From a virus: a DNA stretch of 28,541 nucleotides. The stretch lies in IMG/VR virus record IMGVR_UViG_3300039106_000273, positions 1 to 28,541 of that record, one strand, 5' to 3'. Shown here in pieces: positions 8,411-28,130 of this stretch. The notes under the pieces are model-generated. The model was given only the letters and a program-made list of their open reading frames with translations. It was not told the DNA's origin and ran no database searches. Made by a program: the position numbers and the translations under genes. Numbering within the stretch: position 1 is the first letter of the stretch; the number at the start of each line of letters is the position of its first letter.

Positions 8411-9133
8411 ATGCGTGATTATCTAATGGACATTGTCCAACATACATACGGACTAGGCAACATTGACCTGGTTAAAGTCACTGGCACTGCCGCTGACACG
8501 GCTATTGATGCCATTGCTAGCGACCGTAGTGTCATTCTGCAATGCAAAACACATGCACCAGTGGCAGAAATGGTGGGAACATTTGGTATGCCCAACCTGG
8601 CAAAACTGAATACAATCTTGAACATTCCTGAGTATCGTGAAGATGCCAAGATCCAGGTCAAGAAGAACAAGGATGGAGATCCTGAAAGCATTCACTTTGA
8701 AAACAAAGCTGGTGACTTCAAGAACGACTATCGCTTTATGGCAGCAGAGATTGTCAACGACAAACTGCGCTCAGTCAAGTTCAAAGGCACCACATGGGGT
8801 GTGGAAATTGAACCTTCAGTGTTGAGCATTCAGCGTCTGAAATTCCAGTCACAAGCACACAGCGAAGAAGCCGTGTTCAGTGTCAAGACCAACGGCACCA
8901 ACTTGGAAGTGAACTTTGGTGACCACAGCAGCCACGCAGGTGACTTTGTGTTTGCTACTGACATCGTGGGCAAACTGGCCAAAACCTGGCAGTATCCTAT
9001 CGCTATCGTAATCAGCATCCTGGGCCTGCCTGGTGACAAGAGTCTCAAGTTGAGTGATGACGGCATCATGCAGATCACAGTGGACTCTGGTCTAGCAGTT
9101 TACAACTACCTAATCCCAGCGCAAACAAAATAA
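8411..9133 (+). CDS. 45: DNA polymerase sliding clamp (T4 gp45-like)
   Basis: A 240-residue processivity clamp, close to T4 gp45 (228). The start is ATG 8411 behind AAGGAGA; a TTG at 8363 would add 16 residues without a ribosome site. The segment MVGTFGMPNLAKLNTILNI matches the gp45 N-terminal domain. Two-domain PCNA-like beta architecture is suggested by YRFMAAEIV, then VLSIQRLKFQSQAHSEEAVFSV, then the closing strands of the second domain. In T4-like phages the clamp tethers gp43 to DNA and also activates late transcription. The loader (gp44/62) is not in this window. It ends in a TAATG overlap with the transglycosylase gene. Confidence 0.85.
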   Translation: MRDYLMDIVQHTYGLGNIDLVKVTGTAADTAIDAIASDRSVILQCKTHAPVAEMVGTFGMPNLAKLNTILNIPEYREDAKIQVKKNKDGDPESIHFENKAGDFKNDYRFMAAEIVNDKLRSVKFKGTTWGVEIEPSVLSIQRLKFQSQAHSEEAVFSVKTNGTNLEVNFGDHSSHAGDFVFATDIVGKLAKTWQYPIAIVISILGLPGDKSLKLSDDGIMQITVDSGLAVYNYLIPAQTK

Positions 9134-10800
9134 TGTCTGATCAAAACAACCTTCCTAGAGAAGACTTGACTGTCAAGCAGAAGGATTATTCAATCTTTCT
9201 GCCTGCCATCAGCGGGTTCTACAGCACGTATGTGGGCAAGCAACGTCATGAAAAATATGTGGAAGACGATCGTATTCCTGCAGGTTTTGAAAATGGCATT
9301 GAGGGTATGAACTTCCTAAATCCTGACAAAGGATATTTCCATTACAAGTGGGGTTTGTACTCTGCAGGACATGCCAACTTGGACACTACACAAAACGATC
9401 CACGCGAAGACATGATTCGCAATCGTCATCCTGACAGTTTCATCCTGGGCGACTCGGGTGGATTCCAGATTGGTAAGGGTGTCTGGGAAGGTGACTGGCG
9501 TGCTGGCTCAGGCTGTGACAAAGCGCATAAGAAACGCACACAGGTTCTGGACTGGATGGAAAGCTACATGAACTACGGCATGACACTGGATATTCCAGGT
9601 TGGGTAGGCCGCACTCCACGTGGGCGTGAAGCAACCAAGATCACCACATACGATGAAGCAGTGGAAGCAACCAAGTTCAACTTTGACTACTGGCTACGTA
9701 ACCGTCGCGGCAACTGCAAGTTCCTAACTGTTCTGCAAGGCGATAATCACGAACAAGCAGATCAGTGGTACGGTGAAATGAAGAAGTTCTGTGATCCCAA
9801 AGTGTATCCTAATGAACACTTTAATGGCTGGGCTATGGGATCGCAAAACAAATGTGACGTGCATCTGGTGCTACGACGTCTGGTTACACTGATCTATGAT
9901 GGTTTGCTGGAAGAAGGCAAGCAGGACTGGATTCACTATCTGGGTACTAGCAAACTGGAATGGGCCATGATGTTTACTGACATCCAACGTGCCATCCGTA
10001 AAAATCACAATGCCAACTTCACAATCAGCTTTGACTGTGCAAGTCCATTCCTGGCCACGGCCAACGGTCAAGTGTATCACGAAAACCGTCTGGAAGATAG
10101 AGGCAAGTGGGCTTACAAGATGAGCAAATGTGTGGACGATAAAAAGTATGCACATGACAGCCGTCTGTTCCGTGACGCCGTGGTAAATGACGGTCTGTTT
10201 GAAAGTTTCATTGACAGTCCATTCATGCAACGTACACAGATCAGTGATATTTGTCACTATGCTCCTGGCGATCTAAATAAGATTGGCAAGGAAGGGCGCA
10301 CCAGCTGGGACAGTTTCAGCTATGCTATCCTGATGGGACATAATGTTCATGCACACATTCGCAGTGTACAAGACGGCAATGAGTTGTATGATCAGGGCAT
10401 TGTGCCGGCAGCTCTAGTACAAGAGAAACATCGTCGTAGATTCTTCCGCGATCTAGTGGACAGTATCTTTAGTGCGCCCAGTTATGGTGCTGCCATGGCA
10501 ATCGTGGATGATGCACCCAACAGCATCTGGTACATGGATATTGTGGGCAGTAGTGCCAACGGTTATCTAGGCAAGAAATCTCGCAATGCATCTACTATGG
10601 CAGAAAAGCATCTGGAGATCGAAGGTGAACCACTGGACAAAGTGGTAAAAGGTAAAAAGACTGCCACACCAGTATTTGTCAGCAGTCTCTGGGAAGGTGA
10701 CGACCTGGACCTGGTGGATGAACATCCAGAAGATCGTACCATTGATGACTCGGGCATTGATGGATCAGCACTTGAACAACTTGAACAGGATCAACAATGA
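9133..10800 (+). CDS. dpdA: tRNA-guanine transglycosylase-like base exchange enzyme (DpdA-like)
   Basis: A 555-residue TIM-barrel-type transglycosylase. ILGDSGGFQIGKGVW carries the TGT substrate-binding Asp (D107) with the GGFQ signature, and FLTVLQGDNHEQADQWY corresponds to the TGT QG segment. GWAMGSQNKCDVH and IHYLGTSKLEWAM follow the G.A.G and HLLG-like strands. TISFDCASPF offers D301 as the likely nucleophile. The protein is much longer than bacterial Tgt (about 375 residues) and lacks the clear CxCxxC zinc site. Phage DpdA enzymes swap guanine in DNA for a 7-deazaguanine such as preQ0 and thereby evade restriction. The presence of folE, queD, queE and a YhhQ-type transporter in the same window supports this. 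Action on tRNA cannot be excluded. Confidence 0.75.
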   Translation: MSDQNNLPREDLTVKQKDYSIFLPAISGFYSTYVGKQRHEKYVEDDRIPAGFENGIEGMNFLNPDKGYFHYKWGLYSAGHANLDTTQNDPREDMIRNRHPDSFILGDSGGFQIGKGVWEGDWRAGSGCDKAHKKRTQVLDWMESYMNYGMTLDIPGWVGRTPRGREATKITTYDEAVEATKFNFDYWLRNRRGNCKFLTVLQGDNHEQADQWYGEMKKFCDPKVYPNEHFNGWAMGSQNKCDVHLVLRRLVTLIYDGLLEEGKQDWIHYLGTSKLEWAMMFTDIQRAIRKNHNANFTISFDCASPFLATANGQVYHENRLEDRGKWAYKMSKCVDDKKYAHDSRLFRDAVVNDGLFESFIDSPFMQRTQISDICHYAPGDLNKIGKEGRTSWDSFSYAILMGHNVHAHIRSVQDGNELYDQGIVPAALVQEKHRRRFFRDLVDSIFSAPSYGAAMAIVDDAPNSIWYMDIVGSSANGYLGKKSRNASTMAEKHLEIEGEPLDKVVKGKKTATPVFVSSLWEGDDLDLVDEHPEDRTIDDSGIDGSALEQLEQDQQ

Positions 10801-11210
10801 CAACTCAACAAGAGCGAGAAATTATTGAAACTCGCAAACACAATTCCAAGAAAATGATCTGGGTGTCCTTCCAGAAGGAAGGCATCCACCGTTACCCAGC
10901 GGCGGCCACTGATCCCAAGTTGGCCACTGGTGATGAATATGATGTCAGTTTCCTGGCATCTCCACATCGTCATATCTTTCACTTTGTTGTAAAAATCGAA
11001 GTGTTTCATGACGATCGTGATATCGAGTTTATCCAATTCAAGCGTTGGCTGGAGAACCTTTACAAAGGCGGAACGCTGGTGTTGGATTACAAATCTTGCG
11101 AAATGATCAGTGATGACCTGTTCCTACAGATCAGCGCAAGATACCCCAACCGTGCCATTGTCATTAACGTGAGTGAAGATGATGAAAACGGATGTGAGAT
11201 TGCCTACTAA
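10797..11210 (+). CDS. putative T-fold (QueD/PTPS-like) protein lacking catalytic residues
   Basis: A 137-residue protein translationally coupled to the transglycosylase (ATGA). The order of elements follows 6-carboxytetrahydropterin synthase: an early His (GIHRYP, H31), a paired His strand (SPHRHIFHFVVKIEV, H57 and H59), an acidic turn followed by DIEFIQFKRWL (like the D-F-x-x-L-K helix), LDYKSCEM where QueD has LDH, a helix (ISDDLFLQISARYP), and a last strand VINVSEDDENGCEIAY where QueD has the V-x-E Glu. The catalytic Cys between the zinc ligands is absent, and the catalytic His is Tyr98. It may be a non-catalytic or repurposed T-fold partner. This is a by-eye alignment; the family is otherwise unknown to me. 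Confidence 0.45.
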   Translation: MTTQQEREIIETRKHNSKKMIWVSFQKEGIHRYPAAATDPKLATGDEYDVSFLASPHRHIFHFVVKIEVFHDDRDIEFIQFKRWLENLYKGGTLVLDYKSCEMISDDLFLQISARYPNRAIVINVSEDDENGCEIAY

Positions 11211-11273: not shown

Positions 11274-11573
11274 ATGGCCCAACCCGCATGGCTTAAAAAA
11301 TATCTACGTCTGAAACCAGAAGTGGAACAAATTTTTAATGACCTGGAGGAATACGAAGTATTCTGTCGTGACTTTGGTCGCGTCTTTGATCAATCCGAAA
11401 TGTATGAGAACCGCAGTATCAACTGGCAGGATTTCATGAAACACAAATCAGGACGTCATTGCCGCAACGAATGGGGCGAAGAACTCAAGCGTATGCATCG
11501 TGCTGCCAATGGCTTTGGTTACAACAACAACCGCAGTCACAATAACAATTATGGCAACAGACGCTATCACTAA
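11274..11573 (+). CDS. conserved phage hypothetical protein with Asn-rich basic tail
   Basis: A 99-residue protein with a compact N-terminal helical part (WLKKYLRLKPEVEQIFNDLEEYEVFCRDFG), a middle segment with Trp and Tyr, and a low-complexity C-terminal tail rich in Asn, Arg, His and Tyr from about residue 82. Such a tail could be disordered and contact nucleic acid. It is the first gene after a strong promoter, with a good ribosome site. Its last 23 nt overlap the cupin gene. No enzyme motif is visible and function is unknown. Confidence 0.65.
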   Translation: MAQPAWLKKYLRLKPEVEQIFNDLEEYEVFCRDFGRVFDQSEMYENRSINWQDFMKHKSGRHCRNEWGEELKRMHRAANGFGYNNNRSHNNNYGNRRYH

Positions 11574-11880
11574 GCGCAACTGGGGTCACTATGACGTGAT
11601 CCGTGACTACCGTGGGTGCAAACTCAAGGAACTGGTAGTTGAGCCTGGCAACAGTCTCAGCTATCAGCGTCATTTCCACAGAGCTGAAATCTGGTATGTC
11701 CGTGCAGGATCTGGACAAATACTACTGGATGGCGAGTTGTTGGAATTACCACAGGGCCACACACAGTTTATTCCTGTGGGTGCCTGGCACAAACTTATCA
11801 ACAACACTGCACTACCTTTGCATATTATTGAGATACAGCATGGTACAGTGTGTGAAGAAGAAGACATCGAACGACAATGA
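11551..11880 (+). CDS. cupin-domain protein (ManC C-terminal / mannose-6-phosphate isomerase type II-like)
   Basis: A 109-residue single-domain cupin. The start ATG 11551 gives MATDAITKRNWGHYDVIRD; upstream codons in this frame are low-complexity sequence inside the previous gene. Cupin motif 1 is visible as LSYQRHFHRAEIWYVRAG, with metal-type His residues and Glu, and motif 2 as IPVGAWHKLIN. The opening WG.YDV and the ...H.RAE.WYV pattern are those of the C-terminal isomerase domain of ManC-type GDP-mannose pyrophosphorylases, which interconverts fructose-6-phosphate and mannose-6-phosphate. No nucleotidyltransferase domain is fused here. It is coupled by ATGA to a glycosyltransferase, so a sugar supply or modification role is likely. 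Confidence 0.7.
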   Translation: MATDAITKRNWGHYDVIRDYRGCKLKELVVEPGNSLSYQRHFHRAEIWYVRAGSGQILLDGELLELPQGHTQFIPVGAWHKLINNTALPLHIIEIQHGTVCEEEDIERQ

Positions 11881-12962
11881 CAAAAATTTACATAGTACCT
11901 ATCGAACCCATCGATCAGAGATATACCAAACAATGGTATGATCAGATCCCCCAACTGCTACGTGGTCGTGCAAACGAACGTGGCTTGGAAGATGTGGTAG
12001 TGACTACTGTTGACGGCAAACAAGTGACCAGTGGCACCACCACTGGCGCCTTTCTGGATTTCAGTGCTACCAATATCTATAAAGCAACACAGGCTGAGTT
12101 TATCAGTCGACTGTTCCAGGCAGGCAAAATCAAACCCGGCACCAAGTTCCTAGTAACTGATGCCTGGAACTTTGCCATTACTCCTATCAAATATCAGAGC
12201 GACCTGCTGGGCATTCCAGTTGAGATCCATGGTATCTGGCATGCAGGCGCTTATGATCCCAGCGACATCCTGGGACTCAAGATGGAGAAGCCCTGGCCCT
12301 ATCATGCAGAACGCAGTTGGTTTTACAGTTGCGACAAGAGCTATTTTGCCACAATGTTCCACCGTGACATGTTCTTGCGTAACCTGGACATCCCCGAAGC
12401 TGACCATCACAGGGCTGTGGTAAGTGGACAACCACATTCTGATGTCATGAAGTATTGTGGCGAGTTTACTGATGTACCCGCACAAAAGCGTGACAAGACA
12501 GTCATGTGGCCACATCGTTACAATTCGGACAAGCAACCTGAAATTATCGAAGATCTAATTGCACAGAATCCTGACTTTGAAATTCAGATTACCCAGAAAA
12601 TGAATCTCAGCAAGGAAGAATATTACCAACAGCTGGGTCGTTCGCGAGCTGTGTTCAGTTGCAGTCTACATGAGAATCTGGGCATCAGCATGATGGAAGG
12701 CTGTATTGCTGGCGCTATTCCAATCGTACCAGATCGTTGTAGCTATCGTGAAATGTATTTGCCCGAGTTCAAATACCCTACAGAGTGGACCAAAGACTTC
12801 GAATCCTATCTGGCCAATCGTGACAAACTGATGAAGTTTATTAACGATCGAGTTCAGAATCACAGTCTGTATGCCGCTGCCATGCGTGAGCAACGAGAGA
12901 TTTTGCGATCTGAGTTCCTAAATGCCAACGTGATGTTTGACAGCGTGTTGGGCATCAAGTAA
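11877..12962 (+). CDS. GT-B fold glycosyltransferase (GT4-like)
   Basis: A 361-residue protein. The C-terminal half carries the retaining glycosyltransferase pattern CSLHENLGISMMEGCIAGAIPIVPD (about residues 261-285), with the E-x7-E arrangement that binds the nucleotide-sugar donor in GT4-type enzymes. The N-terminal half has Rossmann-like strands (KFLVTDAWNFAI; IPVEIHGIWHAGAYD), and VMWPHRYNSDKQPEIIEDLI precedes the donor domain as in GT-B enzymes. The acceptor could be modified phage DNA, a virion protein or a host surface sugar; the sequence does not say. Its start overlaps the cupin stop (ATGA), making a two-gene sugar unit. folE follows 21 nt downstream. Confidence 0.7.
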   Translation: MTKIYIVPIEPIDQRYTKQWYDQIPQLLRGRANERGLEDVVVTTVDGKQVTSGTTTGAFLDFSATNIYKATQAEFISRLFQAGKIKPGTKFLVTDAWNFAITPIKYQSDLLGIPVEIHGIWHAGAYDPSDILGLKMEKPWPYHAERSWFYSCDKSYFATMFHRDMFLRNLDIPEADHHRAVVSGQPHSDVMKYCGEFTDVPAQKRDKTVMWPHRYNSDKQPEIIEDLIAQNPDFEIQITQKMNLSKEEYYQQLGRSRAVFSCSLHENLGISMMEGCIAGAIPIVPDRCSYREMYLPEFKYPTEWTKDFESYLANRDKLMKFINDRVQNHSLYAAAMREQREILRSEFLNANVMFDSVLGIK

Positions 12963-12983: not shown

Positions 12984-13730
12984 ATGACAGATAAAGAAAC
13001 AGCATTAGACGCAATGGCCGGTGACGGTGGGTATCGAGAAGGCAAATACCTCGGTGACTATCTTCGCTTTAAAATGAAACGTGAACAAAAACGTTTCTGG
13101 GCAGGAGACAACATTAGCGAATATCTTAATGAAGGTGACAAAGAACGATTAATCGATGAAGCCGCAGAAGCATTTGAAACGGTGCTTGATAGATTGCTTA
13201 TTGATCGTGAGAACGATCCTAATAGTAAAGGCACGGCCCGACGTCTGGCCAAGATGTACTTTAATGAAATTATGGGAGGTCGTTATGACCCAGCACCAGA
13301 TGCAACAGCGTTTCCCAACGACTCGCAGGACCGTTATGAAGGCATGCTGGTTGTTCGTAGTGAGCTTCGCAGTATGTGTAGCCATCATCACCAGCCCGTT
13401 AGTGGCGTTGCTTATATTGGTATTATTGCTGCCAGTAAACTTATTGGCCTTAGCAAATACACACGCATCGCACAGTGGTGTGCCCGCAGAGGTACTCTCC
13501 AGGAGGAACTTTGTAATGACATTGCTAGGGAGATACAAAAAGCCACAGGAGCCGAAGACCTAGGTGTCTATATCCAGGCTACACACGGATGCTGTGAGAA
13601 TCGCGGCATCATGGCACACAGTTCACTGACACAGACCACTGTGTTAAAAGGTCGCTTCATTGATGATCAGAGTACCAAGAAAGAGTTCTTTGACAACATC
13701 AAGATGCAACAGGAATTTGCACCACGTTAA
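12984..13730 (+). CDS. folE: GTP cyclohydrolase I
   Basis: A 248-residue enzyme converting GTP to 7,8-dihydroneopterin triphosphate, the first step towards folate and 7-deazaguanines. The C-terminal catalytic domain is intact: zinc ligands C132 and C203 with active-site H134 and H135 in SMCSHHHQP and THGCCENRG, then IGLSKYTRIAQWCARR, the QEEL segment and a SSLTQTTVLKGRF ending. The N-terminal region of about 80 residues is longer than in E. coli FolE (222 total). ATG 12984 has a TAGGAGA site. In phages folE usually accompanies queD and queE for DNA 7-deazaguanine synthesis, as here, although a folate role is also possible. Confidence 0.93.
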   Translation: MTDKETALDAMAGDGGYREGKYLGDYLRFKMKREQKRFWAGDNISEYLNEGDKERLIDEAAEAFETVLDRLLIDRENDPNSKGTARRLAKMYFNEIMGGRYDPAPDATAFPNDSQDRYEGMLVVRSELRSMCSHHHQPVSGVAYIGIIAASKLIGLSKYTRIAQWCARRGTLQEELCNDIAREIQKATGAEDLGVYIQATHGCCENRGIMAHSSLTQTTVLKGRFIDDQSTKKEFFDNIKMQQEFAPR

Positions 13731-13940: not shown

Positions 13941-14168
13941 ATGGCAACACGCAAAAAGAAATTAGAGAATGTGCCAGCTAATGGTTGGCCCATTATTAAT
14001 CAAGGCACTCATCTTACTGTGAAAACATTTGAAGATGGGCACACAGAGCTAGTATGGGACGATGACCAACTGTTAAAAGAAGTTCAAGAAGCTATTGCGG
14101 CTTATGAGCTTGACCAACTGAAGCCAGCAGTACGTGCTAAAGTGGGAAATAAGGCTAAGAAAAAATGA
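13941..14168 (+). CDS. small conserved phage protein
   Basis: A 75-residue protein with a basic N-terminus (MATRKKKLE), a central PIINQGTHLTVKTFEDGH strand pair, an acidic LVWDDDQLLKEV helix and a very basic C-terminal tail (VRAKVGNKAKKK). The basic ends suggest nucleic acid contact, but no fold is recognised. The ribosome site is weak (AAGG at 13932-13935). It overlaps the phosphoribosyltransferase gene by 4 nt. Confidence 0.6.
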   Translation: MATRKKKLENVPANGWPIINQGTHLTVKTFEDGHTELVWDDDQLLKEVQEAIAAYELDQLKPAVRAKVGNKAKKK

Positions 14169-14689
14169 AGAAGCTATACTACAACTGGACTAATGTGCAA
14201 GGTGCAGTGCTCAACATCGCTCGTGATCTACAAAAAGACAACTGGCGCCCTGACTACATCGTGGGTCTGACTCGTGGTGGGCTGGTGCCTGCTGTCATGC
14301 TGAGTCAGTATCTAGAAGTACCCATGCATGCCTTAAAGGTCAGTCTACGTGACGATGGTGACACTGAAAGTAACACCTGGATGGCAGAAGATGCGTATGG
14401 ATATAATGGGGAAGTTGGTCAGGCAGCCGCCAAGAACATCTTGGTAGTGGACGACATCAACGACTCTGGGGCAACTATTGCCTGGATCAAACAGGATTGG
14501 CGAGCCAGTTGTTTGCCCAACGATGCACGTTGGGATCATGTGTGGGGTCAGAACGTGCGCTTTGCAGTGCTGACAAATAACCAAGCCAGTGATGAAATTG
14601 TGGACTACTGTGCTTGGGAAGTGAACAAAGGTGAAGAAGACTGCTGGTTGGTTTTCCCCTGGGAGGAGTTTTGGTACAATGGCAACTGA
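14165..14689 (+). CDS. type I phosphoribosyltransferase (xanthine/hypoxanthine type)
   Basis: A 174-residue enzyme with the PRPP-binding signature ILVVDDINDSGAT (residues 92-104, acidic pair D96 and D97) and an upstream VGLTRGGLVPAVMLSQYL loop typical of purine salvage transferases such as Gpt. The reaction would be a purine base plus PRPP giving a nucleotide and pyrophosphate; the exact base cannot be read from sequence. The hood region is short and ends with CWLVFPWEEFW, resembling the VFPWE tail of Gpt-like enzymes. It is coupled to the gene before (ATGA) and overlaps the HIT gene by 11 nt. Nucleotide salvage, or handling of an unusual base, would fit the neighbourhood. Confidence 0.85.
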   Translation: MKKLYYNWTNVQGAVLNIARDLQKDNWRPDYIVGLTRGGLVPAVMLSQYLEVPMHALKVSLRDDGDTESNTWMAEDAYGYNGEVGQAAAKNILVVDDINDSGATIAWIKQDWRASCLPNDARWDHVWGQNVRFAVLTNNQASDEIVDYCAWEVNKGEEDCWLVFPWEEFWYNGN

Positions 14690-15056
14690 TTTAGAAAAGG
14701 CATTACATGACAAACGAGCACCCTGGACAGAGATCGAATATCGAACACGAGATTATTGGGCGTTTAGGGATATCTATGCGGTTACCGAAGGGCATCTGTT
14801 ATTTGTGCCTACCACAGAAGACTTTGATGGAATTATGGAATGCTACCGAGCCGCCTACAAGTTTGGATTTGACGGCGTACAAAGTGGAAAATGGGATGCG
14901 TTTAACGTCGGACAAAACTGCGGCCAGGCTGCTGGCCAAACAGTGATGTATCCACACATCCACATGATACCACGACGCACAGGTGACATGTCTGATCCAC
15001 GTGGTGGCGTTCGTCACGTTATACCCGAACGCGGCAACTATAAACTATGGAAGTAG
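14679..15056 (+). CDS. HIT-family nucleotide hydrolase
   Basis: A 125-residue protein started at ATG 14679, which has a GGGAGGAG site about 10 nt upstream; the longer frame from 14631 has no such support. The HIT signature is at AGQTVMYPHIHMIPRR (H93 and H95), where H93 aligns with the catalytic nucleophile. The first His of the usual His triad is replaced by Tyr91. An N-region YWAFRDIYAVTEGHLLFVP matches the HIT beta strands, and GGVRHVIPERGNYK closes the domain. HIT proteins of this kind hydrolyse dinucleoside polyphosphates such as Ap4A or nucleoside phosphoramidates. It lies between a phosphoribosyltransferase and a PP-loop ATPase, suggesting a nucleotide-processing cluster. Confidence 0.8.
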   Translation: MATDLEKALHDKRAPWTEIEYRTRDYWAFRDIYAVTEGHLLFVPTTEDFDGIMECYRAAYKFGFDGVQSGKWDAFNVGQNCGQAAGQTVMYPHIHMIPRRTGDMSDPRGGVRHVIPERGNYKLWK

Positions 15057-15892
15057 GACATGCAGGTTGGTTGACTGTTGAGCTGACCACTGACACTACT
15101 TCTAGAGTCCAACTGGACTTTACTGAGCAGAGTATTCGGTCCATGCCATTCCAGGCAGCGGCTGACTACACTGCTCAAGTCATTGCGGCAAAATACAACA
15201 ATCTACATCTGGGTCTTAGTGGTGGACTGGACAGCGAATTCGTTGCCGCAGTATTACTACGCAATCAGATACCATTCACTCCAGTCATATTTGATTATGG
15301 AATGAACAGTGCCGAACTATGGTATGCCAAAGAGTTCTGTCGTCGGCACAATCTCAAGCCCCAAGTGACACAAATGGATCTGAGAGACATGTTGGCATTA
15401 TACCGACAGTGTTCTCTAGAACTGGGCTTTCTAGAAAGTTTTGAAATCAATGTGGTTAGTGTGGCGTTGCCATTGTTATATCCTGATGCACATTTTATAA
15501 CTGGCTATGGTGAACTATTGAGCAGTGCTAGTGATACATTAACTGGTAGCGAATATATTCCACGAGTGCTAGAAGCCATGCCACACGACTGGTTCCTGGA
15601 AGTGTATAGTAAACAGTCACATCCTGGTGCGTTTTTCAGTTACACACCTGAGCTGATGTATTCGTTTATCAACTCTATCAACTTTGACACCAACCTACAA
15701 ACTGCCAAGTCCAGTCTGTATAACGTGCCTAATAGACCTAAAATTGCAGCCAGTTTCTGGCATCACCGATATGGTGATGACCAGGCTGACACTATCTACA
15801 GCCGCATCATTCGCAGTGTTCATCGAGAAGAAATACCGCTGACGCTGGATTATGATGACTTTAAACATAAGTTTATCATTGACTCTCAGTGA
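15047..15892 (+). CDS. PP-loop ATPase (Asn-synthase/QueC-like)
   Basis: A 281-residue protein with a PP-loop SGGLDS at residues 58-63 (HLGLSGGLDSEFVAAVLL), followed by a Rossmann-like strand (FTPVIFDYGM) and a second adenylate-domain region (AHFITGYGELLSS). PP-loop enzymes adenylate a carboxylate or carbonyl and then add an amine or sulfur. QueC uses this chemistry to turn 7-carboxy-7-deazaguanine into preQ0, but QueC carries a C-terminal four-cysteine zinc site that is absent here. The overall look is closer to the C-terminal domain of asparagine synthetase. The next gene is queD, so a 7-deazaguanine role is possible. It overlaps the HIT gene by 10 nt. Confidence 0.65.
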   Translation: MEVGHAGWLTVELTTDTTSRVQLDFTEQSIRSMPFQAAADYTAQVIAAKYNNLHLGLSGGLDSEFVAAVLLRNQIPFTPVIFDYGMNSAELWYAKEFCRRHNLKPQVTQMDLRDMLALYRQCSLELGFLESFEINVVSVALPLLYPDAHFITGYGELLSSASDTLTGSEYIPRVLEAMPHDWFLEVYSKQSHPGAFFSYTPELMYSFINSINFDTNLQTAKSSLYNVPNRPKIAASFWHHRYGDDQADTIYSRIIRSVHREEIPLTLDYDDFKHKFIIDSQ

Positions 15893-15996: not shown

Positions 15997-16551
15997 ATGG
16001 CAAAATCCTCAACAGCTGATTTAATCAGACACTTGGAAGACAATCTTCCGTATTACGGTCCTGTTAATTACAAATACACCAGCACTAAAGAATATGTGGA
16101 CGCATTTCCCTGCGCCTATCGTCAATGGCGTGCTGATAGTCATTGCAACTTAAATCACGGTTACTCATTCAGCATGAAGTTCTATTTTGGGACTAATGAT
16201 CTGGATGCACGTAACTGGGCTGCCGACTACGGCGGTCTAAAAGAACTTAAACAGATTCTGGAGTCACAGTTTGATCACACCACACTGGTGGCAGCTGATG
16301 ATCCTGAACTGGAGTTTTACAAAGAAATGGAACGCCGCAACTTGGCCAAGCTGACTATTTTGCCAGCACTAGGCTGCGAGGCGCTGGCTGACATGTTATA
16401 CAAATTTGTAAACGGCGTTTATATTCCTGACAACTGGGGTCCTGGAGAAGCAGAACGTTTGTGGTGCTATCGTGTGGAAGTTCGCGAAACACAAGCCAAC
16501 ATGGCTTTCCGCGAAGGTCACCGCGAGTGGAAGGAAGACCTGTTTGCATGA
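15997..16551 (+). CDS. queD: 6-carboxytetrahydropterin synthase (QueD/PTPS family)
   Basis: A 184-residue T-fold enzyme expected to convert dihydroneopterin triphosphate to 6-carboxytetrahydropterin. Family marks are FPCAYRQW, SHCNLNHGYSFSMKFYFG (C50, H54), DARNWAADYGGLKELK, the catalytic FDHTTL (D93, H94), DDPEL, GCEALADMLY and the final strand YRVEVRETQANMA with its Glu. It belongs to the longer HGY-type branch rather than the E. coli QueD type (121 residues). At position 41 this protein has Tyr where I expect the first zinc His (FPCAH), a one-base change (TAT for CAT). Metal binding may therefore be altered. It has its own promoter and AAAGGAGA site. Confidence 0.85.
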   Translation: MAKSSTADLIRHLEDNLPYYGPVNYKYTSTKEYVDAFPCAYRQWRADSHCNLNHGYSFSMKFYFGTNDLDARNWAADYGGLKELKQILESQFDHTTLVAADDPELEFYKEMERRNLAKLTILPALGCEALADMLYKFVNGVYIPDNWGPGEAERLWCYRVEVRETQANMAFREGHREWKEDLFA

Positions 16552-16760
16552 TTAATAAAGAATGGTTAGATAAAGTTGTACTCAGTGCCACCCTATACAA
16601 CAATCAAAGACTTCATACTGATTTTCAAGAAGATGAGATTTTAAAGTTTGTTGAATGGATGCATCAACAATATGGTATTGCTTACGAAAAACCAAAAGCA
16701 ACTCATATAAACACTCCAGAGAAATTACAACAACTAAAGGATCAAAATGAAAAAACGTAA
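16548..16760 (+). CDS. small hypothetical protein
   Basis: A 70-residue protein whose ATG overlaps the queD stop (ATGA). It is mostly helical ([35 protein letters not shown]) with a polar C-terminus, and is slightly more AT-rich than its neighbours. Its last 14 nt overlap the isocitrate lyase gene, so it is translated between the two. No family recognised. Confidence 0.55.
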
Positions 16761-17955
16761 CTATACTCAAGAAGATGTACGTAAGCTACAAGGCTCACTA
16801 CAAATTGAACATACTCTAGCCAAACGTGGCGCATACAAATTGCGTGAATTGCTGGCAAATGAACCATTCGTCGCCACCCTGGGTGCATATAATGGACAGA
16901 CCGCAGTGCAACATGCCAAGGCTGGATTAAAGGCAATCTACTTGTCAGGCTGGCAAGTGGCTGCTGCCAACAACACAGCCAACACCACCTACCCAGACCA
17001 GTCGCTATATCCAGTGGACTCAGTGCCTCGTGTGGTCAAAGGTATCAACAATGCTTTCCGCCGTGCTGACCAGATTGAAACACTGGAAGGCAATGCGACT
17101 ACAGATTATTTCTTGCCCATTGTGGCCGATGCAGAAGCTGGCTTTGGTGGTGCGTTGAACGCATACGAACTAATGACGGCCATGATTGAAGCAGGTGCCG
17201 CAGGCGTACACTTTGAAGACCAGTTGGCGTCAGAAAAGAAATGCGGTCACTTGGGTGGCAAGGTACTAGTGCCCACAAGCCAGATGATTCGCACACTAAA
17301 TGCCGCACGTCTAGCGGCAGATGTTGCTGGTGTTGATACTGTTATCATGGCACGTACTGATGCAGAAGCCGCAACACTGATTACATCAGACCATGATCCA
17401 TTGGATAAGGAATTTATCATTAATGAACGCACTGAAGAAGGCTTTTACAAATTTAAAAATGGTATTGATGCTTGTATTAGCAGAGGTCTTGCTTATGCCC
17501 CTTACGCTGATCTCCTTTGGTTTGAGACTTCGACTCCTGATCTCGTACAAGCTAGAAAGTTCGCCGATGCTATCCACGCACAGTACCCTGATCAAATGCT
17601 TGCTTATAATTGTAGTCCTAGTTTTAATTGGCGTAAGCATCTGACTCGTGAAGAATGTGTGGCATTCCAATCAGAGCTGGGCAAGATGGGTTACAAGTTC
17701 CAGTTCATTACACTGGCTGGTTTCCACAGTCTAAACTTAGCATCATTCAGTCTAGCAAAAGCATACGCAGAAGAAGGTATGGGTGCATACTCAGATCTTC
17801 AACAACTGGAATTCGCCACAGGTGCTGACAGCAAGTTTACTACTGTTCGTCATCAGCGTGAAGCTGGTGTCCCATACTTTGATGCTATTAGCGTGGCAGT
17901 TGGTGCTACATCAACGGCAGCTATGGCTCATTCTACTGAGCATGATCAGTTCTAA
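16747..17955 (+). CDS. aceA: isocitrate lyase
   Basis: A 402-residue enzyme of the ICL/PEP mutase superfamily, which cleaves isocitrate to glyoxylate and succinate. The active-site loop [14 protein letters not shown] is complete, with catalytic C166. Other ICL hallmarks are [24 protein letters not shown] (metal-binding Asp), [49 protein letters not shown] and the terminal [16 protein letters not shown]. coli AceA has 434 residues, so the core is full length and no frameshift is seen. Codon use changes between about 17390 and 17640 (CTT/CTC Leu, GCT Ala), unlike both flanks. It lies between queD and the YhhQ-type transporter. In infection it could open a glyoxylate bypass; a related lyase activity is also possible. 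Confidence 0.92.
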
Positions 17956-17981: not shown

Positions 17982-18605
17982 ATGTTAGATAAAATCTTCG
18001 CCGGTGTAGACCGTGCATTAGCGTATAAATTGATGTTGGCACACATCATTATTATTGCAATCAGCAATTACATTGTTCAATTTAAGATTGATATTGGTGG
18101 ACACCCACTGTCCATTGCGGCCTTTACATTCCCATTGGTAGTTGTACTGACTGACCTGACTGTGCGTTTGATCGGTAAAGAGACTGGCCGTGCAGTAATT
18201 GGCCTGGCATTTATCCCAGCTATCATTGTCAGTATCCTGATAGTGTTGGCAGGTGGTGCTCCCGAGTCTGTTGCGTTCCGCATCGGCCTAGGATCAGGCA
18301 TTGCTTACTTTGTCAGTAACCTGTTGGACGTCTATGTGTTCCAGTATTTCCGTGAGAAGTACACTGGCACCTGGTACATTGCACCCACACTGAGTGCTAT
18401 TGTGTCCACATTCTTTGACACTTACACATTCTTCTTTACAGCGTTTGCTGGTGGTGCTGATCCATTCATGTCAGAAAACTGGCACATTGTGGCTACCAAC
18501 AACAGCATCAGTAAAATCATTGTCAGCTTGGTGGTAATTTTGCCAGCTTATGGTATGTTGCTGAACTATCTGACCAAGAAGGTCGATGCTGAAAAGGCTG
18601 CGTAA
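17982..18605 (+). CDS. yhhQ: queuosine precursor transporter (YhhQ/QPTR family)
   Basis: A 207-residue membrane protein with about six hydrophobic segments. Family features are the second segment ending in FTFPLVVVLTDLTVRLIGKETGRAVI, the small-residue run GLGSGIAYFVSNLLDVYVFQYFREK, and TLSAIVSTFFDTYTFF, matching the DUF165/YhhQ pattern (LTDLxxExxGxxxAR; D..VF...R). E. coli YhhQ imports preQ0 and preQ1. In this phage it could feed scavenged 7-deazaguanine to the DpdA-like enzyme and bypass missing biosynthetic steps. It has a strong AAAGGAGA site, and the next small gene starts inside its last 20 nt. Confidence 0.85.
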   Translation: MLDKIFAGVDRALAYKLMLAHIIIIAISNYIVQFKIDIGGHPLSIAAFTFPLVVVLTDLTVRLIGKETGRAVIGLAFIPAIIVSILIVLAGGAPESVAFRIGLGSGIAYFVSNLLDVYVFQYFREKYTGTWYIAPTLSAIVSTFFDTYTFFFTAFAGGADPFMSENWHIVATNNSISKIIVSLVVILPAYGMLLNYLTKKVDAEKAA

Positions 18606-18756: not shown

Positions 18757-18987
18757 ATGAGCTCAGATCAACCAAATACAAAAGAATTCATACTAAAATG
18801 GCTGGCAAATATTGTAATTGTGGCTGCCGCGGTTGCCACAGCATTTGACATCCACCCCTGGAATAAAGTATTATTCCTATTAGGCAGTCTATTATGGACT
18901 GTGGTCGGCATCATGTGGAGACAGCCCAGTTTGTGGACGCTGAACGCATTTTGCGCTATATTATACATCATAGGTTTAAGTAAATGA
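18757..18987 (+). CDS. small two- to three-helix membrane protein
   Basis: A 76-residue protein starting at the base after the previous stop and ending in an ATGA overlap with queE. Hydrophobic helices are LKWLANIVIVAAAVATAF, NKVLFLLGSLLWTVVGIMW and WTLNAFCAILYIIGL. The spacing resembles a small family of phage inner-membrane proteins of unknown function. Being locked translationally to queE suggests shared expression rather than a proven shared pathway. Confidence 0.65.
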   Translation: MSSDQPNTKEFILKWLANIVIVAAAVATAFDIHPWNKVLFLLGSLLWTVVGIMWRQPSLWTLNAFCAILYIIGLSK

Positions 18988-19847
18988 AAATCAAAGTAAG
19001 CGAACTATTCTACAGTCTACAAGGTGAAGGTAGATTTGTGGGTGTGCCCAGTGTGTTTTTACGCACATTTGGATGCAACTTCACATGCAGTGGCTTTGGC
19101 TGTGCGCCTGGTGAAAAGAGCACTGAAGCGGACGACATTGCCAAGAACATTGAACTATACAAGAGCATTGCAGATGTGCCACTGGCCAAGACCGGCTGTG
19201 ACAGTTTTATCAGCTGGCATCCAGCATACAAGGATCTAAGCCCCACATATGAAAATCCCGACCTGGTCAAGATGATGTTGGACCTGGTTCCAGAAAACAA
19301 TTGGCTACAGAGCAACGGCAACGATGTGCATCTGGTTGTCACAGGCGGAGAGCCACTACTGGGCTGGCAACGTGCTTATGCTGAATTGCTGGAATTGCCT
19401 GGCATGATCAATCTCAAGAACCTGACATTTGAAACCAATGGCACACAGGATCTACAGGAAAAGTTTTCCGAATACATCTTTAACCGCTGGACTAAACCTG
19501 GCAAGCGAAACGAGCTGACATTTAGCGTCAGTGCCAAACTGTCAGCATCGGGTGAGAAGTGGGAAGAAGCCATCCGTCCTGACGTTGTAGTGGACTACCA
19601 GAGCTACGGACACACATACCTAAAGTTTGTGGTCGAGACTGATGAACACTTTACAGAAGTAGATCAGGCAGTTAGCGAGTATCGCGCCGCTGGATTCTAT
19701 GGCCCAGTGTTTGTCATGCCCATTGGCGGTACTGTGGAAAGTTATGATAATAATCGTGTGCGTGTTGCTGACTGGGCACTGCGACGTGGTTACAACTATA
19801 GCCCACGTCTACATGTGGACATTTGGAAGAACGGATGGGCCAAGTGA
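18984..19847 (+). CDS. queE: 7-carboxy-7-deazaguanine synthase (radical SAM)
   Basis: A 287-residue radical SAM enzyme that ring-contracts 6-carboxytetrahydropterin to 7-carboxy-7-deazaguanine. The N-terminus VSELFYSLQGEGRFVGVPSV is the classic QueE opening, followed by LRTFGCNFTC (C31, C35). VVTGGEPLLGW is the SAM-binding GGE motif, and LTFETNGTQ and FSVSAKLSASGE follow in family order. The third cluster cysteine is not in the usual CX3CX2C place: C40 (CX3CX4C) or C72 (KTGCDSF) must serve. QueE proteins with widened cluster loops are known, so activity is plausible. The gene is longer than E. coli QueE (223) and sits among small membrane proteins. Confidence 0.9.
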   Translation: MKIKVSELFYSLQGEGRFVGVPSVFLRTFGCNFTCSGFGCAPGEKSTEADDIAKNIELYKSIADVPLAKTGCDSFISWHPAYKDLSPTYENPDLVKMMLDLVPENNWLQSNGNDVHLVVTGGEPLLGWQRAYAELLELPGMINLKNLTFETNGTQDLQEKFSEYIFNRWTKPGKRNELTFSVSAKLSASGEKWEEAIRPDVVVDYQSYGHTYLKFVVETDEHFTEVDQAVSEYRAAGFYGPVFVMPIGGTVESYDNNRVRVADWALRRGYNYSPRLHVDIWKNGWAK

Positions 19848-25756: not shown

Positions 25757-26842
25757 GTGAGTGATACCCGTAAAGTAACCAGCCGCGAAGCTCGCGCCGG
25801 CATCCTGCAATGTTTCAACAAAAAGCGTCCCCTCTTTCTCTGGGGGCCTCCTGGTATTGGTAAGTCAGAACTAATTGCTGGCATTACTAATGATCTAGGC
25901 GGTCACATGATTGACTTGCGCCTAGCACAAATGGAACCCACTGACATTCGTGGTATTCCCTACTTCAACAAAGATCGTGCTGTGATGGACTGGGCTCCTC
26001 CCATCGACTTGCCCGATGCTGAAATGGCATCTAAATATCCCATCATCGTCCTGTTCTTGGACGAAATGAACTCGGCCGCACCTGCCGTGCAAGCCACTGC
26101 CTATCAGTTGGTGCTGAACCGTCGCGTGGGCAAATATGTATTGCCTGATAATGTGGTCATTGTGGCCGCTGGTAACCGTGAAAGCGACAAGGGTGTTACC
26201 TATCGTATGCCTGCTCCGCTGGCCAACCGTTTTGTCCACTTGGAAATGCGTGTGGACTACGAAAGCTGGGAAGCCTGGGCGGTGGAGAACCGTGTCCACA
26301 AGGACGTGGTGGGTTACATCGGCTTTGCCAAAGGCGATCTGTACGACTTTGATCCCAAGTCAGCCACCCGTTCGTTTGCCACTCCCCGCTCATGGAGTTT
26401 CGTGAGCGAGTTGCTGGACGACAACATGAGCGAGTCCACTCTCACTGACCTGATTGCAGGTACTGTGGGCGAAGGTCTTGCACTCAAGTTCATGGCACAC
26501 CGCAAGGTTGCTGGTCAGATGCCCAAGCCTTCAGACATTCTGGACGGCAAGGTTACCGAACTCAAAGTGAAAGAAATTTCCGCCATGTACTCACTTACTG
26601 TGAACATGTGCTATGAGTTGCGTGACAATTATGCTAAAATTGTGGACGGCAAGAACGATGACTGGCACAAGCAGGCAGACAACTTCTTCCAGTTCATGAT
26701 GAACAACTTCACTACTGAGCTGGTTGTAATGGGTGCTCGTGTTGCTCTTACAGTCTACAACCTGCCGTTCGTACCACAGAAGTTGAAGACTTTTGCGGAA
26801 TTCCACAAGCGTTTCGGCAAGTACATCATGGCCGCGGCCTAA
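25757..26842 (+). CDS. MoxR-type AAA+ ATPase
   Basis: A 361-residue ATPase started at GTG 25757 with AAAGGA upstream. Walker A is GPPGIGKS (residues 30-37), Walker B is IIVLFLDEMNSA (D102, E103), sensor 1 is VVIVAAGNRES, and the arginine-finger region is PAPLANRFVHLEM. This is the MoxR/CbbQ layout. These proteins act as chaperones with a VWA partner to insert metals or remodel complexes, and the gene directly downstream is such a partner. It has two strong tandem promoters, suggesting high early expression. The target in the host or virion is unknown. Confidence 0.88.
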   Translation: MSDTRKVTSREARAGILQCFNKKRPLFLWGPPGIGKSELIAGITNDLGGHMIDLRLAQMEPTDIRGIPYFNKDRAVMDWAPPIDLPDAEMASKYPIIVLFLDEMNSAAPAVQATAYQLVLNRRVGKYVLPDNVVIVAAGNRESDKGVTYRMPAPLANRFVHLEMRVDYESWEAWAVENRVHKDVVGYIGFAKGDLYDFDPKSATRSFATPRSWSFVSELLDDNMSESTLTDLIAGTVGEGLALKFMAHRKVAGQMPKPSDILDGKVTELKVKEISAMYSLTVNMCYELRDNYAKIVDGKNDDWHKQADNFFQFMMNNFTTELVVMGARVALTVYNLPFVPQKLKTFAEFHKRFGKYIMAAA

Positions 26843-26852
26843 TAGGTAGAAT

Positions 26853-28130
26853 ATGGCAACATCAACAACCACTGCAAACAAGCCTAAAAAGGGCTTGAAC
26901 ATTCAGGTGCCAACTGTCACTAACCCGGCAGTGGACGCCCGAGTGCGCGATAAACTGATCACTGCTCGGGTGGGCTTGTTGTTGCGTCATCCGTTTTTCG
27001 GTAACATGGCATCTCGTCTGGAACTGATCAACGGTGACGAATGGCTGGCCACTGCCGCTACTGATGGTCGTCGTTTCTACTACAACAGTGTGTTCGTGGA
27101 CTCACTGACTGCCAAGCAGACCGAGTTCTTGTTTGGCCACGAAGTGTTACACAATGTCTACGATCACATGGGGCGTCGTGGTGAGCGCGACCCACGGTTG
27201 TGGAACATTGCTGACGACTATTGCGTGAACGCAGACCTGTTGGATCAGCGTATTGGTGACAAGATCACGCAAGTGGACATCTTGTATGATCCCAAGTACC
27301 GCGGCATGAGTGCTGAAGAAGTGTACGACAAACTGTATGAAAATGCAGAAAAAATCGACATTACTCAGTTGCTGGAAGGCCTGCTGGACGAGCACTTGGA
27401 TGACGAAGACGGTGATGGCGAGGGTGACGAAGACAAGGAAGGCAAAGGCGGCCGTCCTAAACTGAGCGCTGAAGAAAAGAAGCAGATCCGTGATGAACTC
27501 AAGGAAGCTGTACTCAATGCGGCCAATGCTGTGGGTGCTGGCAGTTTGCCTGCAGGTATCCGTCGTATGATCCAGGATCTCACTGTCAGCCGTATGAACT
27601 GGCGCGAACTGCTTCGTCAACAAATTGAAAGCACCATCAAGTCTGACTACAGTTGGATGCGAGCAAGCCGTAAAGGCTGGCACATGGATGCAATCATGCC
27701 TGGTATGAAGCCAGGTGAACAGATTGACGTTTGTATTGCACTGGACATGTCAGGTTCCATTGGCACTAAAGAAATTAAAGAAATGATTTCTGAAGTCAAA
27801 GGCATCATGGAACAGTATGAAGAATACCGTATCCATCTCTGGACTTTTGACACCAGTGTGTACAATCCGCAAGTGTTTACCAGCGACAACCTGGAAGACA
27901 TCCTGAACTACCAGCCAGAAGGTGGTGGTGGCACCAGCTTCGAGTGTAACTGGGAATTCATGAAGGACCAGGGCATTGAGCCTAAAAAGTTCATCATGTT
28001 TACTGACGGGTATCCTGGCGATGGCTGGGGCGATGAGTTGTATTGCGATACGGTGTTTATCATCCACGGCAGTACTACTATTGAACCGCCATTTGGAGTT
28101 CACGCATACTACGATGCTAAAGCCAAGTAA
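26853..28130 (+). CDS. metallopeptidase-like/VWA protein (MoxR partner, DUF2201-like)
   Basis: A 425-residue protein with two domains. The N-terminal part has a zincin motif FGHEVLHNVYDH (HEVLH, residues 96-100) and NIADDYCVNADLL, as in the predicted metallopeptidase domain of the DUF2201 family. An acidic linker (about residues 180-205) separates it from a helical region. A C-terminal VWA-like domain carries the metal-site motif LDMSGSIG (D298, S300, S302), then WTFDTSV and FTDGYPGD. The pairing with the MoxR ATPase is typical of chaperone operons. Proteolysis has rarely been shown for this family, so it is a prediction. It ends 16 nt before an intrinsic terminator. Confidence 0.87.
   Translation: MATSTTTANKPKKGLNIQVPTVTNPAVDARVRDKLITARVGLLLRHPFFGNMASRLELINGDEWLATAATDGRRFYYNSVFVDSLTAKQTEFLFGHEVLHNVYDHMGRRGERDPRLWNIADDYCVNADLLDQRIGDKITQVDILYDPKYRGMSAEEVYDKLYENAEKIDITQLLEGLLDEHLDDEDGDGEGDEDKEGKGGRPKLSAEEKKQIRDELKEAVLNAANAVGAGSLPAGIRRMIQDLTVSRMNWRELLRQQIESTIKSDYSWMRASRKGWHMDAIMPGMKPGEQIDVCIALDMSGSIGTKEIKEMISEVKGIMEQYEEYRIHLWTFDTSVYNPQVFTSDNLEDILNYQPEGGGGTSFECNWEFMKDQGIEPKKFIMFTDGYPGDGWGDELYCDTVFIIHGSTTIEPPFGVHAYYDAKAK

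Follow-up and report, generated by a model that had tools for sequence, protein, structure and literature searches.

We somewhat favor the view that the 137-aa protein encoded at 10797-11210 of the window, that is, the whole 28,541-nt viral stretch analysed here (IMG/VR record IMGVR_UViG_3300039106_000273), is an active enzyme on the QueD/PTPS scaffold, which replaces QueC by a zinc-assisted, cofactor-free decarboxylation of 7-carboxy-7-deazaguanine (CDG). The initial annotation, made from the letters alone, had regarded it as a second, catalytically degenerate T-fold protein coupled to a DpdA-like gene, and had offered a subunit, a base-carrying factor or a new base-modifying step as its role. 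The features of the window referred to below are as follows.

9133-10800, + strand: predicted DpdA-like (TGT superfamily) transglycosylase, long type, 555 aa, with DSGGFQ and FDCASP motifs
10797-10800, + strand: ATGA shared by the stop codon of the DpdA-like gene and the start codon of the T-fold gene
10797-11210, + strand: 137-aa T-fold protein on the QueD scaffold (phrog_17812), proposed to be a zinc-dependent enzyme acting on CDG
11274-11573, + strand: 99-aa protein, in 123/171 loci bearing the glycosyltransferase (GT) and 0/41 loci of the short transglycosylase type
11500-11880, + strand: cupin of the mannose-6-phosphate isomerase C-terminal type, with an uncertain start codon (PF01050, 1.2e-27)
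11877-12962, + strand: GT-B type glycosyltransferase whose C-terminal domain is GT4-like, linked across phages to the T-fold protein
12984-13730, + strand: FolE, GTP cyclohydrolase I (PF01227, 1.4e-37)
14165-14689, + strand: purine phosphoribosyltransferase-like protein (PF00156, 1.2e-13)
15997-16551, + strand: QueD, phage type (PF01242, 3e-13; phrog_2389, 2.2e-35)
17982-18605, + strand: YhhQ-like queuosine-precursor transporter (PF02592, 4.9e-22; TIGR00697, over cut-off)
18984-19847, + strand: QueE, 7-carboxy-7-deazaguanine synthase (phrog_2076, 2.8e-50)

The T-fold open reading frame starts with ATG and is real, far above chance: its product matched phrog_17812, a PHROG without an assigned function, at 2.7e-35, and at least 598 relatives were found in IMG/VR, mostly in fragmentary records. 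No Pfam or NCBIfam family matched the protein, and PF01242 and TIGR03367 gave no match to it at E 1. A single-sequence PDB search returned no useful match, the bacterioferritin matches in it being attributable to chance. A family alignment of 61 sequences was assembled from three viral-contig scans and one genome scan, and the family profile matched phage QueD proteins at E=3.6e-06 and the PTPS protein PH0634 at E=0.06. The AlphaFold model (pLDDT 95.5) has the secondary-structure order beta-beta-alpha-alpha-beta-beta; its top Foldseek match in the PDB was E. coli QueD (E=1.1e-5), and QueD and other PTPS-family enzymes were its best PDB matches. VIA-align gave Z scores of 13.3 with the PTPS homologue PH0634, 12.4 with QueD and 9.8 with the QueF/QueF-like structure 5jyx. 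The predicted structure, for which a T-fold had been anticipated, therefore agrees with the QueD-like order of elements first read from the letters. Domain fusions also occur in the family, with additional sequence at either end of the T-fold domain (contigs L006, 8224-9405; L011, 8428-9312; L178, 6001-6954), and BFVD contains further T-fold fusions, which carry alcohol dehydrogenase and AAA annotations.

Residue conservation, scored over 72 relatives with <75% identity, revealed 11 positions unchanged in all of them (H31, L53, H57, H59, V69, R74, E77, F78, S100, C101 and E102), while H71, E127 and D128 differ in only one or two relatives. The three putative zinc histidines H31, H57 and H59, already noted in the initial annotation as H31 and H57-x-H59, are thus present in all 72 sequences, and the final V-x-E strand described there corresponds to the near-invariant V125-x-E127, with the C-terminal base-anchoring E127 kept in 71/72. 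In the profile alignment to PH0634, H31, H57, H59, E102 and E127 pair with PTPS positions, namely the zinc ligands and the Glu. The catalytic Cys is indeed missing, since its QueD position, four residues before H57, is occupied by the invariant L53; the catalytic Asp-His pair of QueD likewise found no match among the conserved columns of the family, and the QueD stretch that carries it, for whose active His the initial annotation had read a Tyr, aligns with a shortened loop. As this new set of polar residues is complete and strictly conserved, including the invariant C101, the family looks like an enzyme with changed chemistry and not a dead copy. The conservation pattern accordingly argues for a distinct enzyme built on the scaffold of QueD, and the label "catalytically degenerate" does not hold.

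The neighbor of the T-fold gene is, judged from its sequence, a transglycosylase. When it was aligned as a profile with E. coli TGT (E=2.3e-06), the DSGGFQ and the catalytic FDC motifs were paired, 26 of the 27 matches in a PDB profile search were TGTs (best E 0.4), and D107 and D301 are conserved. Among the loci of 225 distinct T-fold proteins, the local transglycosylase was a long DpdA in 164, a 9g-type in five and a short type in 41, with none in 15. The 280-aa short-type partner has a TGT fold (model pLDDT 95.6; Z 18.8 with an archaeal TGT). The latter two types were found through searches with the 9g DpdA and with the phi13:1 neighbor, so that T-fold phages without a long DpdA, provisionally taken as transglycosylase-less, could no longer be regarded as such; PF01702 and a DSGGFQ DNA pattern had given no match in these phages, and both missed known DpdAs too. 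For T-fold loci with full flanks, defined as 5.5 kb on each side, a TGT-family gene was present for 103/107, comprising 101 with a transglycosylase nearby and two (L001 and L116) whose long DpdA lies at another place in the record. A second T-fold protein linked to a transglycosylase and distinct from the true QueD, whose gene lies about 4.8 kb downstream, was thereby borne out, and the co-occurrence survey uncovered no frequent presence in phages lacking a DpdA-like gene. On a separate contig (L262, 469-6117 and 14641-15948), four TGT paralogues with DSGGLQ motifs surround queE and T-fold genes.

To place the protein in the pathway, whole records of 37 T-fold carriers were compared with 16 QueC-bearing control phages (15 diverse phages and Vibrio 2.275). 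QueE was found in 37/37 T-fold records and QueD over the Pfam cut-off in 31/37, the other six having no PTPS match over the cut-off. Full-length QueC was found in 0/37, as the PF06508 matches were partial PP-loop pieces; the best of them, an ORF encoded by Vibrio phage D479, belongs remotely to the QueC superfamily and has a Cys motif, so the absence of QueC is not absolute, and most IMG/VR records are fragments. A weak QueC match in Xanthomonas X1 is NAD-synthetase-like in appearance, and the PP-loop ATPase ORF of the window (15047-15892), which has only three related loci, contains SGGLDS but not the QueC Cys motif and was therefore not counted as QueC. Conversely, the T-fold protein was found in 0/16 of the QueC-bearing phages; Vibrio 2.275 encodes QueC, QueF and a related DpdA, with the T-fold protein absent across its record. 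A 2019 survey reported QueC in 63/65 phages with DpdA, FolE, QueD and QueE (PMC6884629), against 0/11 here (Fisher p about 1e-11, relatedness ignored). The swap between QueC and the T-fold protein is illustrated by two phages of Cellulophaga baltica strains that share an unusual QueD type: phi38:2 has QueE, QueC, QueF and DpdA and no T-fold protein in its whole genome, and phi13:1 has the T-fold protein and no QueC. Such mutual exclusion indicates that the T-fold protein most probably works on the last intermediate that the two routes share, so that its substrate would be CDG. With QueC missing and the step placed at CDG, a new base-modifying step fits best among the three roles first offered. 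The main contrary sign is a locus of Streptomyces sp. NEAU-Y11 (L257; L258, 9971-11636), possibly a biosynthetic cluster, where the T-fold gene lies beside FolE and QueD and no convincing QueE was found in the genome; CDG may therefore not be the substrate there.

In the route that we propose, FolE, QueD and QueE would convert GTP into CDG, which would be bound by E127, the Glu whose counterpart in PTPS enzymes anchors the 2-amino-4-oxo-pyrimidine edge. A zinc ion would be held by H31, H57 and H59, with R74, H71 and E77 acting on the 7-carboxylate, and the most likely reaction would be decarboxylation to 7-deazaguanine with no ATP or NADPH. The DpdA-family transglycosylase would then exchange guanine in phage DNA for the T-fold product, and in the lineage of the window the co-inherited GT may act after DpdA. 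The unusual guanine would likely protect phage DNA against host defences. The phosphoribosyltransferase-like gene, which recurs in 52/225 T-fold loci, could serve to recycle the guanine released by DpdA. Further genes of the window include a full-length isocitrate lyase between queD and the transporter (16747-17955; NF011645, 1.7e-203, over cut-off), and a MoxR-VWA-like pair (25757-28130) made up of an AAA ATPase and, after it, a DUF2201 metallopeptidase-like/VWA protein.

Besides the Streptomyces locus, decarboxylation leaves a second difficulty, in that 7-deazaguanine offers no handle for the GT, which is linked to the T-fold protein as tightly as DpdA is. A strong GT homologue was found in 29/37 T-fold records, including 26/26 of those with a long DpdA, and all 15 strong GT matches among 50,697 phage records were in T-fold carriers. 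At the locus level, the GT accompanied 161/169 long or 9g-type DpdAs and 0/41 of the short type, a split that was unchanged after grouping at 60% identity (eight long, five 9g-type and six short groups); relatedness inflates these counts, and common descent is part of the linkage. The GT homologue was also absent from Vibrio 2.275, a DpdA phage of the QueC type. The 99-aa protein is possibly part of the same cassette as the GT, and the cupin was found in only 19/171 related loci. Because plain 7-deazaguanine has no obvious sugar handle, the sugar would have to go to another target or the T-fold product would have to be a different one, and the co-inherited GT hints at a sugar-bearing 7-deazaguanine. 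We consider it possible, though distinctly less probable than decarboxylation, that the T-fold enzyme and the GT make such a base together, the former converting CDG into, or keeping it in, a form usable by the GT-B enzyme, with glycosylation before or after DpdA insertion and a carboxylate sugar ester or a C-linked sugar at C7 as the outcome. In one tentative order of steps, the T-fold protein would convert CDG, a DpdA-type enzyme would insert the product and the GT-B enzyme would add the sugar to give a glycosylated 7-deazaguanine in phage DNA; if true, this would be a route of 7-deazaguanine hypermodification without preQ0. However, the short-type loci combine the T-fold protein and a TGT without the GT, meaning that the T-fold step can proceed in its absence, and the target of the GT could also be another base or the cell surface.

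An accessory pterin enzyme, acting before QueE to aid or replace a QueD that lacks two zinc ligands, is in our judgement unlikely. In the QueD of the window, FRQW-type and HGYS sequences replace zinc-binding His residues, and the six T-fold records without a PTPS match over the cut-off as well as the Streptomyces locus, with FolE and QueD and no convincing QueE, would suit such a role. Nevertheless, phi38:2 has the same altered QueD together with QueE, QueC and DpdA and yet no T-fold protein, which led us to reject the idea that the T-fold protein complements a zinc-poor phage QueD, and the missing QueC would be left unexplained. Least probable is that the protein serves DpdA without catalysis of its own, as a subunit or a factor that delivers the base: the two genes do overlap in the window, where the ATG of the T-fold gene shares bases with the stop codon of the 555-aa gene, and nearly all T-fold loci have a linked transglycosylase, but the putative metal site and polar residues are invariant, the partners belong to three different TGT subfamilies and gene order is variable, with the T-fold gene directly downstream of DpdA in only 17/225 loci, which argues for a metabolic step and against a subunit dedicated to one DpdA.

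Compared with known systems, the T-fold protein resembles QueD/PTPS (COG0720, PF01242) in its fold, the order of its elements, the His triad and the positions of E102 and E127. It differs from them in having Leu53 for the catalytic Cys and no Asp-His stretch, in the new invariant or near-invariant H71, R74, E77 and C101, and in lacking a match to their family models, while a true QueD is encoded separately. In the gene set, the protein fills the place of QueC (PF06508) at the CDG step before insertion, whereas QueC has an unrelated fold, is ATP-dependent and makes preQ0. QueF and QueF-like enzymes also have a T-fold and act on 7-deazaguanines; they match the model less well than QueD does, however, and need preQ0 and hence QueC, which the T-fold genomes lack. 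An unnamed family with hundreds of relatives would therewith become a testable enzyme, one that takes over from QueC and channels the queuosine pathway towards a DNA base that is not preQ0, and a single base-making step would be common to three transglycosylase subfamilies. As the GT travels with two of these, a sugar-bearing 7-deazaguanine can be tested by mass spectrometry in the cultured phages PA5oct and ACP17. A counterpart in the proposed function is DpdL, reportedly proposed in 2023 by Cui and colleagues as a phage 7-carboxy-7-deazaguanine decarboxylase. The conversion of CDG to 7-deazaguanine fits a set of FolE, QueD, QueE and DpdA without QueC, and the T-fold genomes share this context, as they make CDG, lack QueC and have DpdA; the likeness is one of predicted step and gene context. 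The T-fold protein may thus be the published DpdL. If so, the enzyme itself is already known, and what is new is its strict residue set, its exclusion of QueC in many phages, its three-way partnership with transglycosylases and its link to the GT, which to our knowledge was not part of the DpdL work.
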